From assembly GCF_003663945.1 (NCBI RefSeq), contig NZ_RCCH01000006.1:62001-126000 (forward strand): a stretch of 64,000 nucleotides of DNA. Reading direction: 5' to 3'. The DNA comes from Lacinutrix venerupis (GTDB lineage: Bacteria > Bacteroidota > Bacteroidia > Flavobacteriales > Flavobacteriaceae). Position numbers and translations under genes: made by a program. The notes beneath the pieces were generated by a model. That model had not been told where the DNA came from. It ran no database searches and saw only the letters and a list, made by a program, of their open reading frames with translations. Below are positions 36,475 to 40,781 of this stretch, piece after piece (within the stretch, counting starts at the first letter, position 1; each line of letters starts with the position of its first letter).

Positions 36475-36631
36475 TTTTTGTATTTAATTGAATTATAAAT
36501 CAACTTATTATGACCCATAATTCGGCGTGCAAAGGTACGGTTTTATATAGAATAATTTGGTATAAATAAGGTGAGATATTTATTTGTTAATAGTAAAATG
36601 CTATCTTTTCAAAATTATTTAAAATTTCCCG
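36475..36631 (+). other. Intergenic region between divergent transcripts
   Basis: No gene is seen. On the minus strand TACCTTTG (plus-strand CAAAGGTA at 36530-36537) is a possible -7 box for the methyltransferase gene. The plus strand leads into the first CAAGTT-N14-CATCTAA site. Confidence 0.4.
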
Positions 36632-36658
36632 CAAGTTTTAATTAAAAACTGCATCTAA
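36632..36658 (+). promoter_or_regulatory. ECF-type promoter motif, site 1 (before the decayed sigma gene)
   Basis: CAAGTT at 36632-36637 and CATCTAA at 36652-36658 are separated by exactly 14 nt. The same two boxes with the same spacing occur three more times within 2.1 kb, each before a gene. They resemble the -35/-10 pair of an ECF sigma rather than the housekeeping TTTG/TAnnTTTG type. The site lies 25 nt before the apparent sigma start, so the sigma would be autoregulated. Confidence 0.78.
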
Positions 36659-36683
36659 ATTATATTACAATAAAATTTAATTT

Positions 36684-37262
36684 TTGACTGAAACCAAATT
36701 TATAGAAGCGCTAAAGAGCAAAAGCGAGCAGGCGTAAAGTAAGCTTTTAGATGACTACTAGCAAAAGGTATATGCTACTTGTATCTCTTTTGTGCCAAAT
36801 ACAGAGGATGCCGAAGATATTGCGCAAGAGGTTTTTGTTGAAGTATTTAATGCTATACATAAATTTAAAGGGCAGTCTAAACTATCTACCTGGATTTATA
36901 AAGTAACTACTAATAAATGTTTAGAATTTATACGTAAAAAAAACACTAAAAAGCGTTTTGCTTTTTTATAGTCTATAACAGGAAATGCAATTCCTGTTGA
37001 TATGACAAACTATTTTACAGAGATGAATCATCCTGGAATAGTTTTAGAAAACAAAGAAACTAGCAAGGTGTTATTTGCTGCTATAAACCAATTGCCAGAT
37101 GCACAGCGTATTGTTTTTACGTTGCATAAAATAGATGGTAAAAGTTATAATGAAATAAGTGAAATTGTAGATAAAAGTTTATCGTCTGTAGAGTCTTTAA
37201 TGTTTAGGTCTAAAAAAAACTTACAGAAGGTATTAGAAAATTTTTATGAAAATAATAGATAG
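36684..37262 (+). pseudogene. Decayed ECF sigma factor gene with three in-frame stops
   Basis: One reading frame from TTG 36684 to the stop at 37260-37262 encodes a complete ECF sigma factor of about 190 residues, interrupted by TAA (36735-36737), TAG (36759-36761) and TAG (36969-36971). Region 2 (NTEDAEDIAQEVFVEVFNAI, GQSKLSTWIYKVTTNKC) and region 4 (QLPDAQRIVFTLHKIDGKSY, SLSSVESLMFRSKKNLQKVL) are otherwise well preserved, with no frameshift. At least the second and third stops fit C-to-T changes from glutamine codons (CAG). Neighbouring genes use TAG as a normal stop, so read-through by recoding is unlikely. The part after the last stop (ATG 37002) could still give an isolated region 4 fragment. 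Confidence 0.88.
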
Positions 37263-37264
37263 CG

Positions 37265-37291
37265 CAAGTTTTTTTACGCTTGTGCATCTAA
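37265..37291 (+). promoter_or_regulatory. ECF-type promoter motif, site 2 (before the decayed anti-sigma-like gene)
   Basis: CAAGTT (37265-37270), 14 nt, CATCTAA (37285-37291), ending 13 nt before the next ATG. It begins within 3 nt of the sigma stop. An independent promoter for the downstream pair would allow separate expression of regulator and sigma. Confidence 0.75.
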
Positions 37292-37304
37292 AAAAATATA
37301 GATT

Positions 37305-37625
37305 ATGAAAACAAATATGAATATAGAAGAAAAGGTAACAAAGACTTTAGAAGTATTTGATACAATTGACACTGTAAAAGCACCACCTTTTTTTAAGGAT
37401 AAAACCATGCAGCTTTTATTTGCTGAAAAAGAAGAAAAAGTTACACCATTATTTTGGAGCTAGTTTACACCACAATTACAATTAGCTACCTTAGTATGTG
37501 TTGTATTGGTTAATTTTTATGCCATTAAAGAAATAAATAATTCTGAATACGAATCATCAATTTCAAGTTTTGCTTCAGATTATGGAATTGCAAGAGAACA
37601 AGAATCATCAATTTTCAATTTTTAA
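37305..37625 (+). pseudogene. Decayed one-TM anti-sigma-like gene with an in-frame TAG
   Basis: From ATG 37305 the frame runs to TAA 37623-37625 and would give 106 residues, but TAG at 37461-37463 stops it after residue 52. The change fits TGG to TAG (WS-stop-FTPQLQLA, where the stop replaces a likely tryptophan). The N-terminal half is charged and cytoplasmic-looking; just after the stop comes a single membrane helix (QLQLATLVCVVLVNFYAI), then a short periplasmic tail. The topology matches CnrY-type anti-sigma factors. Truncation removes the anchor, so any product would be soluble. I do not recognise its family by sequence. Confidence 0.75.
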
Positions 37626-37652
37626 AAAATAAAAAAAAACACAGTTTTATAT

Positions 37653-38114
37653 GTGCTGCTTATTGTATTAATAATAATGAATGGTTTTTTTCTATTCAAT
37701 TACTTAGGTAGGCCGCAGCATAAAGGAGTAAAAGAGTCAAGTGCTTTTATTGTAAAAGAATTAAATTTTAATGCTTCTCAACTAGAAAAATTTAAACAAC
37801 TAGAAGAAAATCATCATTTTACAATGCAAAAAAATGGAGATGATATTAAAGTAAATAAAGACAAATTATTCAAAAAAATTACAGCACCTACAATAGATAG
37901 AAATAAAGTAGATAGTTTAATAATTGAAATTTCTAAAGCAGATTTATTAAAAGAAAAAGAACTTTTTAATAAGCTTCGAGGCATTTATGAGATTTGTGAC
38001 GAAAATCAAAAAAAACGATTTAGTGCTATTTTAAAAAAAGCGAGACGTTTTAATGGTAATGGACCCGAAAGATCAAGAAGACCCGAAAGATCAAGTAGGC
38101 CAGAAAGACCTTAA
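37653..38114 (+). CDS. Periplasmic heavy-metal-sensor-like protein (Spy/CnrX type), ATG start apparently lost
   Basis: This protein of up to 153 residues has an N-terminal membrane anchor (VLLIVLIIMNGFFLFNYL), then a helical hairpin domain (about 25-135) with ELNFNASQLEKFKQLEENHH and KKITAPTIDRNKVDSLIIEIS, as in Spy/CpxP/ZraP/CnrX-like periplasmic proteins. An Arg-Pro-rich tail (PERSRRPERSSRPERP) ends it. The natural start seems to have been at 37629, where the codon is now ATA: it is followed by KKNTVLYVLLIV and lies 3 nt after the preceding stop. Translation might use GTG 37653 or ATG 37677. It may sense metal or misfolded protein for the neighbouring sigma. Confidence 0.72.
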   Translation: MLLIVLIIMNGFFLFNYLGRPQHKGVKESSAFIVKELNFNASQLEKFKQLEENHHFTMQKNGDDIKVNKDKLFKKITAPTIDRNKVDSLIIEISKADLLKEKELFNKLRGIYEICDENQKKRFSAILKKARRFNGNGPERSRRPERSSRPERP

Positions 38115-38135
38115 AAATGAATAATCGTATTTACA

Positions 38136-38167
38136 AAAAGACCTTAACTAATTAAGGTCTTTTTTTT
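38136..38167 (+). terminator. Terminator after the metal-sensor-like gene
   Basis: The 10-bp stem AAAGACCTTA / TAAGGTCTTT with a 6-nt loop is followed by T8. It separates the sigma module from the EF-hand gene. Confidence 0.88.
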
Positions 38168-38192
38168 GTGTTTTATTTAACAAAATAAAACA

Positions 38193-38219
38193 CAAGTTAT
38201 TTTCAATTACATCATCTAA
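38193..38219 (+). promoter_or_regulatory. ECF-type promoter motif, site 3 (before the EF-hand gene)
   Basis: CAAGTT (38193-38198), 14 nt, CATCTAA (38213-38219), 34 nt before the EF-hand ATG. It lies after a terminator, so the EF-hand gene is a separate transcript sharing the control. Confidence 0.77.
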
Positions 38220-38253
38220 ACTTATATAACAAAACAATTATAAAGAATAGATT

Positions 38254-38538
38254 ATGAATAATAGCACATTTAAAAAAACAATATTAACGTTTGGAATAGC
38301 AGTATTAGTTTTAAATAGTTCATTTGGTCAATCTGAAAAAAGAGAACAAAAAACGCCGCCAACATTTAGTGAGTTATTAAAAGAACTAGATAAGGATGAA
38401 GATGGCTTACTTTCTAAAACAGAAGTTAAAGGTCCATTGAAAGAAGGTTTTTCTGAAATTGATACAGATGAAGATAGTTTTATTTCTGAAGAAGAATTAA
38501 AAAAAGTACCAAAGCCTAAAAGAAGAAAAAGAGATTAG
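38254..38538 (+). CDS. Small secreted EF-hand protein
   Basis: This 94-residue protein has a signal peptide (about 1-24, ending SSFGQS) and a pair of calcium-binding loops: DKDEDGLLSKTE (about 49-60) and DTDEDSFISEEE (about 70-81). Both have acidic residues at positions 1, 3, 5 and 12, so calcium binding is plausible. The C-terminus is basic (KPKRRKRD). It should act in the periplasm or outside the cell as a calcium or metal buffer or sensor. It is monocistronic between a terminator upstream and a wobble-rich terminator downstream, under promoter site 3. Confidence 0.88.
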   Translation: MNNSTFKKTILTFGIAVLVLNSSFGQSEKREQKTPPTFSELLKELDKDEDGLLSKTEVKGPLKEGFSEIDTDEDSFISEEELKKVPKPKRRKRD

Positions 38539-38564
38539 AATAGTATTTTGGTTGGTTAGTAGTT

Positions 38565-38600
38565 AAAAGCTTTGTGATGTAAAAGTCATGAGGCTTTTTT
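38565..38600 (+). terminator. Wobble-rich terminator after the EF-hand gene
   Basis: AAGCTTTGTGATG pairs with GTCATGAGGCTT over 12 positions, four of them G-U, and runs into T6. A closely similar hairpin closes the SCO gene unit (40804-40837). Confidence 0.7.
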
Positions 38601-38672
38601 CAAGTTTCAAACTTTAAAAACGCAAGTATTTATAAAAAAAACCACCAAAACATAATTAATTTAAAAAAAGCG

Positions 38673-38699
38673 CAAGTTTATTTTTTATTAGGCATCTAA
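38673..38699 (+). promoter_or_regulatory. ECF-type promoter motif, site 4 (before the YHYH/MORN/SCO genes)
   Basis: CAAGTT (38673-38678), 14 nt, CATCTAA (38693-38699), 28 nt before the YHYH ATG. Sites 1, 2 and 4 also share CGCAAGTTT at the -35 side and all four have CATCTAAA-like A-rich ends. Confidence 0.78.
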
Positions 38700-38727: not shown

Positions 38728-39486
38728 ATGAAAAACCTATTTAAACTAATATTATTAATGGTAGCGGTGTTTACATTAAGTATCGCTTGTACTTCAAATG
38801 ATGATGCTGCAAGCACAACAACTGTTACAGAAGACGAAGTTGTAACAGAGCTTCATGCAGCATACTCGGCTTTTAATACAGATGCTACAACAATTTATAT
38901 AGACAATACGGGAACAAATGTTGTAATAGAAACTACAGGTTTACCAGATCACCAAACCGTTTATTGGGGAGAAGGACATCCGCTTTACATAGAAGAGCCA
39001 GATGTACAAGTAACACCTAGTATAATGTCTAGTAACAATAATGCTGTAACTATCACAGTAGATGCTACACCAAATTTAACAGGAAATACTGTATCTACAA
39101 CATTTAATACTATTGGTATAGCAGTTAGTGGCGCTTCAATTTTTAATGATCAAGAAGGTGGCGGACCTTTAGACCAAGCAGCAGCAAGTTTAGATTATAC
39201 AGGTGCACATATTGGGCCAGGTGTCTATCACTATCATTTAGAGCCCAAAGCTTTTTCTAATGATGATGATGCCTTAGTAGGTGTACTATTAGATGGTGTT
39301 TTCCTTTACGGAAGAAAATGTAGTGCTACAGGTTCTTACCCAGAAGATTTAGATGTTTCAGGCGGACATACATCTATAACACAATATACAGATGGAGAAG
39401 AAGAATACCACTATCATATAATAAACGAAGTATATTCTAATACAGGATCTTACTTAGCATTCGCAGGACCTTACCAAGGATATTAA
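38728..39486 (+). CDS. YHYH domain-containing lipoprotein
   Basis: This 252-residue protein has a lipoprotein signal peptide (MKNLFKLILLMVAVFTLSIAC) and then an extracytoplasmic domain with two copies of the naming motif: GVYHYHLEPKAF (about 170-180) and EEYHYHIINEVY (about 230-240), plus GVLLDGVFLYGRKCS. The histidine-rich motifs could bind metal, for which the YHYH family is a candidate, but its function is not settled. It is the first gene of a run with a MORN-type lipoprotein (4 nt after) and a SCO protein (overlapping that), under promoter site 4. Confidence 0.92.
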   Translation: MKNLFKLILLMVAVFTLSIACTSNDDAASTTTVTEDEVVTELHAAYSAFNTDATTIYIDNTGTNVVIETTGLPDHQTVYWGEGHPLYIEEPDVQVTPSIMSSNNNAVTITVDATPNLTGNTVSTTFNTIGIAVSGASIFNDQEGGGPLDQAAASLDYTGAHIGPGVYHYHLEPKAFSNDDDALVGVLLDGVFLYGRKCSATGSYPEDLDVSGGHTSITQYTDGEEEYHYHIINEVYSNTGSYLAFAGPYQGY

Positions 39487-39490
39487 AGTA

Positions 39491-40111
39491 ATGAAAACAT
39501 TTTTTACAGTTATACTTGTTCTGTCTTTTTTGAGTTGTAAGCAATCAACAGAAAACAATTTTTCTGAAGAAAATAATACAATTAAAAGTGAAAATATTAT
39601 AACAATTAAAGATGTTGAAGTTCTTAAATCAGAATTAATTTTAAACCAACTACAAGGCGTTTGGTATTATAAAGAAGAACCTTACAATGGCTACTCTTTA
39701 AAGTATCACGAAAATAATACTATAAAAGAAAAGCTTGGTTTCTATAGCGGAAAACGTCAAGGTATTGCTCAAACATGGTCAGAGCATGGAGTACTTCGTA
39801 TAGAGTCTTATTACAACCAAAACAAGTTGGTTGGTGTTTATAAAAGTTTTTGGGAAAATGGTAACCTAGCCTTAGAAGTTAATTATGTAAACGGAAAAAA
39901 GCAAGGAGAAGAAAAACAATGGTATTCTAACGGAAAACTATCAAAATTAAGGTTGTTAAAAGACGGTAAAGAAAACGGCATTCAAAAAGCTTGGTTACCA
40001 ACAGGACAACTTTATGTTAATTATGAAGCAAAAAACGGTAGAACCTTTGGTTTAATGCGAGCAAACTCATGTTATAAATTAGAAAATGAAAAAGTTATTA
40101 TTTCAAAATAG
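39491..40111 (+). CDS. MORN/YwqK-type repeat lipoprotein
   Basis: This 206-residue protein has a lipoprotein signal peptide (MKTFFTVILVLSFLSC) and a repeat region (about 70-190) of MORN_2-like units: GKRQGIAQTWSEHGVLRIESYY, GVYKSFWENGNLALEVNYVNGKKQGEEKQWYSNGKLSK and GIQKAWLPTGQLYVNY. Such repeats form beta hairpin stacks for protein or lipid contact. The name YwqK-family antitoxin is often applied but toxin-antitoxin activity is not supported here. It ends 26 nt inside the SCO gene, so the two are translationally coupled. Confidence 0.85.
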   Translation: MKTFFTVILVLSFLSCKQSTENNFSEENNTIKSENIITIKDVEVLKSELILNQLQGVWYYKEEPYNGYSLKYHENNTIKEKLGFYSGKRQGIAQTWSEHGVLRIESYYNQNKLVGVYKSFWENGNLALEVNYVNGKKQGEEKQWYSNGKLSKLRLLKDGKENGIQKAWLPTGQLYVNYEAKNGRTFGLMRANSCYKLENEKVIISK

Positions 40112-40781
40112 TCTGCTATTACTTTTACTAAGTTTAACCTTATTAGTAATAGGTTGTAAAAAAACTGTAAAAAAGGAAATTAGTAAAGCCGAAGAAACCA
40201 GTAGAGTAGCGTATTTACCATATTATAACGAAGCATCTTTTACACCAAAATGGTTGACGCCAGAAACAGAAGAAGAGCAAATTTTTCATAAAATACCAGA
40301 CTTTTCATTAACAAACCAATTGGGAGAAGAAGTGTCTCAAAAAACGTTTGAAAATAAAATTTATATAACCGATTTCTTTTTTGCTAGCTGTCCTGGTATT
40401 TGCCCGCAAATGACGGGAAACATGTTTCAATTACAAGAAGCATTTTTAAACGATGATGAGGTGTTATTTTTATCTCATACCGTAACACCAACAAAAGATT
40501 CTGTTCCCGTTTTAAAAAATTATGCCCAAAAACATGGTGTAATAGATAATAAATGGCATTTAGTAACAGGAGATAAACAAGTTATTTATAATCTTGGTAG
40601 AGCTCAATATTTTATAGAAAACGATTTAGGAGCACCTAAAACCATGGACGATTTTTTGCACACAGAGAATTTTTTGTTAATAGACAAGAATAAACATATA
40701 AGAGGTATTTATAATGGTTTAAATAGAGCCTCAATGGCACAATTAATAGTAGATGTTAAAGCCTTGAAGAAACAAGGTTAA
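40086..40781 (+). CDS. SCO1/SenC family copper chaperone-like lipoprotein
   Basis: This 231-residue protein has a lipoprotein signal peptide (about 1-24, LLLLLLSLTLLVIGC) and a thioredoxin fold with the SCO copper motif CPGIC (in FFASCPGICPQMTGN, about residue 105) and the histidine ligand in FLHTENFLLIDK (about 195). SCO proteins deliver copper to the CuA site of cytochrome oxidase or act in periplasmic thiol redox. Its ATG lies inside the preceding gene in another frame; this start is needed for the signal peptide, so the 26-nt overlap is real. No oxidase genes are nearby. It is followed by a good terminator. Confidence 0.94.
   Translation: MKKLLFQNSLLLLLLSLTLLVIGCKKTVKKEISKAEETSRVAYLPYYNEASFTPKWLTPETEEEQIFHKIPDFSLTNQLGEEVSQKTFENKIYITDFFFASCPGICPQMTGNMFQLQEAFLNDDEVLFLSHTVTPTKDSVPVLKNYAQKHGVIDNKWHLVTGDKQVIYNLGRAQYFIENDLGAPKTMDDFLHTENFLLIDKNKHIRGIYNGLNRASMAQLIVDVKALKKQG

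Follow-up and report, generated by a model that had tools for sequence, protein, structure and literature searches.

A conserved promoter motif of a putative dedicated ECF sigma factor in Flavobacteriaceae-like bacteria and its probable orphaning in Lacinutrix venerupis

Introduction

Previous work has established ECF sigma factors, local regulons of small size and modules of the CnrYXH type, and the described systems closest to the locus presented here come from Cupriavidus metallidurans and Flavobacterium psychrophilum. The target of the Cnr system is a metal efflux pump. The system of C. metallidurans is built from the sigma factor CnrH, the anti-sigma factor CnrY and the metal sensor CnrX, and metal-bound CnrX is proposed to switch CnrY, thereby releasing CnrH (PMC4598750). 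In F. psychrophilum, the SM6 ECF promoters display a CGT -10 box and belong to type IX secretion genes (PMC9723704). In general, an AAC -35 element together with a CGT -10 element has served as a hallmark of such promoters, yet later ECF classifications no longer require it (PMC8103513). Class I anti-sigma factors are reported to accompany only 6% of Bacteroidetes ECF sigma factors (PMC7406223), and the presence of another anti-sigma class at a locus of this phylum would therefore not be odd.

Here, we describe a locus within a window of 64,000 nucleotides, i.e., the whole stretch of L. venerupis DNA that was analysed. It carries four copies of a two-box motif, of which, as of the regulon, no published description was found in the literature searched, the coverage of which was partial. 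Very probably, a single dedicated ECF sigma factor, which some members of the Flavobacteriaceae-like family searched possess, uses the motif as its promoter, the regulator having been lost in this genome and its promoters most likely orphaned.

Promoter sites and genes of the locus

The motif consists of CAAGTT and CATCTAA separated by 14 nt, and all four exact copies listed in a preliminary description, at 36632, 37265, 38193 and 38673 on the forward strand, were recovered. A chance origin, which that description considered unlikely, found no support, as none of 100 dinucleotide-shuffled versions of the window produced a site (mean 0.00, largest 0). The sites were also correctly placed 13-34 nt ahead of start codons, the gaps measured from CATCTAA being 25 nt (TTG 36684), 13 nt (ATG 37305), 34 nt (ATG 38254) and 28 nt (ATG 38728). 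Frequent random occurrence in the genome had been named as an observation that would speak against the motif; yet the genome (3.12 Mb in 19 contigs, 99.98% complete) holds only these four exact copies, all at this locus, and no match to the pattern read backwards. Allowing up to two mismatches adds one match in the window, which is within chance (5 found against 4.12 expected). The extended form CRCAAGTT-N14-CATCTAAA occurs in the genome four times perfectly, never with one mismatch and seven times with two, while its backward control gives 3 matches at up to two mismatches.

All features of the locus lie on the forward strand. Site 1 (36632-36658, extended 36630-36659), which aligns with six same-genus relatives and shows one mismatch in relative G011, precedes a frame with a TTG start (36684-37262). 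The preliminary description had an ECF sigma gene at this position, but no open gene exists in this genome, as the frame is interrupted by TAA at 36735-36737 and TAG at 36759-36761 and 36969-36971. With the stops replaced by X, Pfam nevertheless identifies Sigma70_r2 (4.8e-17) and Sigma70_r4_2 (2e-14), and the 192-residue frame of eight relatives comprises a sigma2 and a sigma4 domain joined by a short linker and nothing else, which is the make-up of an ECF sigma factor. Site 2 (37265-37291) begins two nucleotides past the sigma stop and lies ahead of the anti-sigma pseudogene (37305-37625), which was assigned by family alignment, displays one hydrophobic stretch by eye and carries a TAG at 37461-37463 where eight relatives encode Trp. 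It is followed by a periplasmic sensor with a hydrophobic N-terminus (37629-38114), assigned to the LTXXQ/Metal_resist sequence class by an LTXXQ match of 26.1 bits against the Pfam cut-off of 24.3; its ATG has become ATA at 37629-37631, and a GTG at 37653 could serve instead.

The remaining two sites lie ahead of target genes. Site 3 (38193-38219), all 27 nt of which are identical in relative G009, precedes a gene for a small EF-hand protein with a signal-like N-terminus (38254-38538; Pfam EF-hand). Site 4 (38673-38699) precedes a gene for a YHYH lipoprotein-like protein (38728-39486; Pfam YHYH), the family alignment of which shows an invariant Cys21 and two YHYH motifs. Genes for a MORN-variant lipoprotein-like protein (39491-40111; Pfam MORN_2) and an SCO1/SenC protein (40086-40781; Pfam SCO1-SenC) are likely co-transcribed with it, as relatives also have the MORN gene behind the YHYH gene and the SCO1/SenC gene behind the MORN gene. 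The syntenic locus is found in six same-genus relatives (G002, G005, G006, G009, G011 and G012) as well as in G029 and G031, which belong to two other genera, and in these genomes it contains additional genes and, in several cases, additional sites. A second, different ECF operon, encoding a sigma factor, a second reading frame and a small secreted protein, is located at 43533-41989 on the reverse strand and is likewise adjacent in relatives. Upstream of this operon, an alignment of seven loci shows two conserved boxes, TTAAAC and GTCTAAA, which are unlike CAAGTT and CATCTAA.

Co-occurrence of the sites with the sigma factor

Among 60 genomes, including that of the window, the same nine hold both an ortholog of the sigma factor (E<=1e-114) and at least two exact sites, the next best sigma match beyond the nine being 1.8e-42. 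Three of the other 51 genomes (G014, G015 and G025) have one exact site each, all inside open reading frames (ORFs) and taken as chance. A wider set of 397 family genomes, again including the window genome, gave at least two exact sites in 38 of the 48 with the sigma (E<=1e-60) versus 3 of the 349 without it. At least one site was present in 42 of 48 versus 36 of 349, leaving six sigma-bearing genomes with none, though the backward control also matches in many of these genomes, and single 13-base matches mean little. The scan of relatives proposed in the preliminary description was also run with the extended 16-base motif on 40 sigma-bearing and 40 sigma-less genomes, seven further sigma-bearing genomes being left out: it occurs in 33 of 40 versus 0 of 40, with 98 sites in total against 1 for the backward control, and is absent from seven of the sigma-bearing genomes.

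Loci of named species were fetched using peptide patterns of the sigma factor and not the motif, and the best 80 of 91 relatives were analysed. Eight relatives that carry the motif supplied the query alignment, and their genomes are also the source of at least six of the 80 loci, which are therefore not independent. These best 80 of 91 loci span 20 named genera, e.g., Lacinutrix, Winogradskyella, Algibacter, Psychroserpens, Hyunsoonleella, Flavivirga, Kordia and Olleya. All 257 of their exact sites lie on the sigma strand and the opposite strand has none, 79 loci having at least one, and the spacing is nearly fixed, with two sites at 13 nt and three at 15 nt beside the 257 at 14 nt. The flanks are conserved as well across these 80 of 91 loci: CAAGTT is preceded by C (94%) and R (100%) and followed by T (90%), and CATCTAA is followed by A (93%). 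The full promoter form is CRCAAGTTT-N13-CATCTAAA. In addition, 77% of the sites have an A seven nucleotides past CATCTAA, which is the likely start point of transcription.

Co-occurrence, strand bias and fixed spacing in relatives strongly support the part of the preliminary description that read the sites as a local ECF regulon; the autoregulation that it also proposed probably does not operate in this genome, where the sigma and anti-sigma frames are broken. While the sites and the company they keep are observed directly, binding of the sites by the sigma factor is what we infer from their pattern. It could be argued that a conventional repressor or activator binds the sites and the sigma factor is a bystander, as short conserved boxes with a constant spacer might be the two halves of an operator. 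Yet the boxes form neither a palindrome nor a direct repeat, all 257 exact sites in the best 80 of 91 loci are on the sigma strand at a median of 27 nt before a start, and no classical regulator was found among the part of the cluster genes put to Pfam. Moreover, TCTAA as the -10 element at a 16-nt gap from CAAGTT resembles RpoE-type promoters. A bystander role of the sigma is accordingly considered highly improbable, and the sites are read as sigma-dependent promoters in what follows.

Circuit layout and target genes

Within the best 80 of 91 loci, a site with at most two mismatches lies behind the sigma stop in all 80, and in 67 of them CAAGTT has the same two-nucleotide offset from that stop, while a control stretch of similar length inside the sigma gene never comes closer than four mismatches. 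Ahead of the sigma gene, such a site is found in 41 of 80 loci, and two more (L060 and L062) show by eye a site with a 13-nt spacer; in a quick sigma tree, this upstream site switches state at least six times. Since site 2 is present at every locus and site 1 at 41 of 80, the output to anti-sigma and sensor appears constant and self-activation optional. The autoregulation by the adjacent sigma proposed in the preliminary description thus fits the lineage as an optional feature, but probably not this genome, given its broken frames. Of the best 80 of 91 loci, 75 have a TTG where the sigma match begins, as at 36684 in the window, and 69 of these lack any in-frame ATG or GTG upstream, which suggests that selection may favour low translation of the sigma factor.

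An ORF of at least 60 codons follows within 120 nt of 241 of the 257 sites in these 80 of 91 loci (median distance 27 nt), 16 sites having none. Clustering of the 241 first ORFs gave anti-sigma (72), EF-hand (55), YHYH (52), sigma (30), CotH (16), Cthe_2159 (6), VTC (3) and others (3), with four further sigma sites falling on a shadow frame; the EF-hand, YHYH, CotH, Cthe_2159 and VTC groups were checked with Pfam on one or two representatives each. Of the 98 extended sites, nine are remote from the sigma gene, either on a different contig or at a distance of 79 kb or more. The first ORFs behind them encode two YHYH proteins, two sulfatases, one protein each of the Cthe_2159, VTC and CotH families, a di-haem peroxidase and a protein without assignment. 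Five of these nine distal sites thus precede the same families as the local targets, and a trans-acting regulator is the natural reading. To our knowledge, little is known about the function of YHYH, CotH, VTC and Cthe_2159 proteins in these bacteria.

Together, the layout suggests a circuit in which the short anti-sigma factor with its one membrane stretch would hold the sigma factor, while the membrane-anchored, Spy/CnrX-like periplasmic sensor would relay an envelope signal, perhaps metal or calcium. The freed sigma may then drive its own inhibitor and the sensor from site 2, as at every locus seen, itself from site 1 in about half of the loci, and a few exported proteins of the EF-hand, YHYH, CotH, VTC and Cthe_2159 families. 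From the EF-hand, Cthe_2159 and YHYH targets, it could be speculated that the signal is a surface metal, calcium or a different one, which is a guess.

Loss of the regulator in the window genome

The three stops in the sigma frame, the one in the anti-sigma frame and the lost ATG of the sensor have no counterpart in the eight relatives compared, which are all intact at these positions, and none of the 47 other sigma-bearing family genomes (E<=1e-60) has a stop in the sigma. All four stops are substitutions, and no frameshift is present. As the sigma and anti-sigma frames are broken, the reader of these promoters is probably not made. General genome decay was rejected as a cause: 48 of the 73 ORFs of at least 80 codons in G009 match the window at 60% identity or more, and among the 48 window genes so matched, only sigma and anti-sigma contain internal stops. 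Three other G009 alignments with a stop are two N-terminal overextensions of open frames (609 and 584 aa) and one short secondary alignment.

Sequencing or assembly errors in an intact strain could also produce such stops, and with one genome of the species seen and four substitutions without a frameshift, this explanation has some appeal. However, the four stops and the altered start codon cluster in three neighbouring genes, none of the 46 other G009-matched window genes has an internal stop, and this genome also lacks two regulon genes that G009 and G011 possess, making an error very unlikely. These two genes, for an EF-hand protein and a YHYH-EF-hand fusion, would lie at 38538-38673 between the EF-hand and YHYH genes. 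With both missing, the regulon itself has shrunk in this genome.

Substitutions were counted on the branch of the window and on its sister branch, dropping ambiguous positions in sigma, anti-sigma and sensor. For the sigma, the window branch shows 3 nonsense changes besides 14 nonsynonymous and 18 synonymous ones, and the sister branch 7 nonsynonymous and 24 synonymous, a pattern that fits a late loss. Neither the anti-sigma (4 nonsynonymous, 3 synonymous and 1 nonsense versus 7 nonsynonymous and 9 synonymous) nor the sensor (13 nonsynonymous and 18 synonymous versus 16 and 14) displays a surplus of amino-acid changes on the window branch. In the EF-hand target, nonsynonymous changes outnumber synonymous ones by 10 to 1 on the window branch and equal them at 2 each on the sister branch, which may reflect relaxed selection after loss of the sigma. 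At sigma columns conserved at 95%, the window has three missense changes besides the stops, and 81 other sequences have a median of 1 and a maximum of 4; at 90%, the values are seven for the window and a median of 2 and a maximum of 8 for the others. The missense load is hence inside the range of the relatives, at its high end.

The four perfect promoters sit uneasily beside a dead sigma factor. In a rough neutral model, the divergence of ~10% suggested by the four stops gives a P of 0.006 for 52 intact promoter bases, and the best product of both probabilities (four stops and 52 intact bases) is ~0.01, which leaves some tension with decay. Readthrough of the four stops might still yield sigma and anti-sigma, so that the module would work with lower output and the promoters would have stayed under selection after the stops arose, yet we consider this very unlikely, slightly more so as the sigma missense load is at the high end of its range. 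Recoding of TAG and TAA was rejected as a simple reading, the relatives carrying Tyr, Gln, Gln and Trp at the four stops and the 35 tRNAs found in the genome having sense anticodons; no suppressor tRNA is among these 35, in a search that scored 150 of 300 candidates and that an unusual tRNA could escape. Alternatively, the promoters may still be used through another ECF sigma factor, as their perfect state despite the broken cognate frame and the second sigma operon at 43533-41989 would allow. This is unlikely, since the genome contains no further match to the sigma at E<=1e-30, and the neighbouring sigma is only 26-29% identical and has its own boxes. Orphaning thus remains the preferred reading: point mutations would have removed the sigma, the anti-sigma and the sensor start, while the promoters and remaining targets survive, the promoters being most likely weak or silent.

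Implications

A sigma-promoter pair can now be called from sequence alone across 20 named genera, and the YHYH, CotH, VTC and Cthe_2159 families appear as one response. The constant promoter of the anti-sigma and the labile promoter of the sigma open the feedback design to comparative study, while the window species offers a natural loss of the regulator with the promoters left in place and thus a view of how a regulon ends. Finally, the 16-base signal, being specific, could also be put to use as an orthogonal promoter.

Comparison with known systems

The best matches of the sigma factor are SigW and RpoE (NCBIfam and PDB sequences), and it falls below every equivalog cut-off among the 25 NCBIfam matches listed. 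Its promoter deviates from the AAC/CGT hallmark (PMC8103513), having CAAGTT and CATCTAA instead. Like the SM6 promoters, it is an ECF-type promoter in Flavobacteriaceae, one SM6 promoter likewise lying ahead of a sigma/anti-sigma pair (PMC9723704), but it differs in its CATCTAA box and its targets.

The locus shares the three-part make-up of CnrYXH, namely an ECF sigma factor, a very short anti-sigma factor with one membrane stretch and a membrane-anchored periplasmic sensor. Of the 75 sensors found in the best 80 of 91 loci, 42 were searched for domains; at E<=0.01, 24 of these match LTXXQ and 22 match Metal_resist. The sensor profile reaches Spy at an E of 2.6e-4, and NccX (0.31) and the nickel-cobalt protein CnrR, taken as CnrX (0.43), give alignments that cover most of each protein but are no better than noise, unrelated chains ranking above them at 0.13. 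The anti-sigma factor (~104 aa, the median of the 75 found in the best 80 of 91 loci) has the consensus SPFFKDKTM and one hydrophobic stretch by eye. Its profile gave no CnrY match at E<=5, its length fits, and anti-sigma classes share little sequence (PMC7406223). By analogy, we infer a CnrYXH-like logic for the module, which differs from CnrYXH in that its anti-sigma gene bears its own copy of the promoter and in its targets, the EF-hand, YHYH, CotH, VTC and Cthe_2159 proteins.
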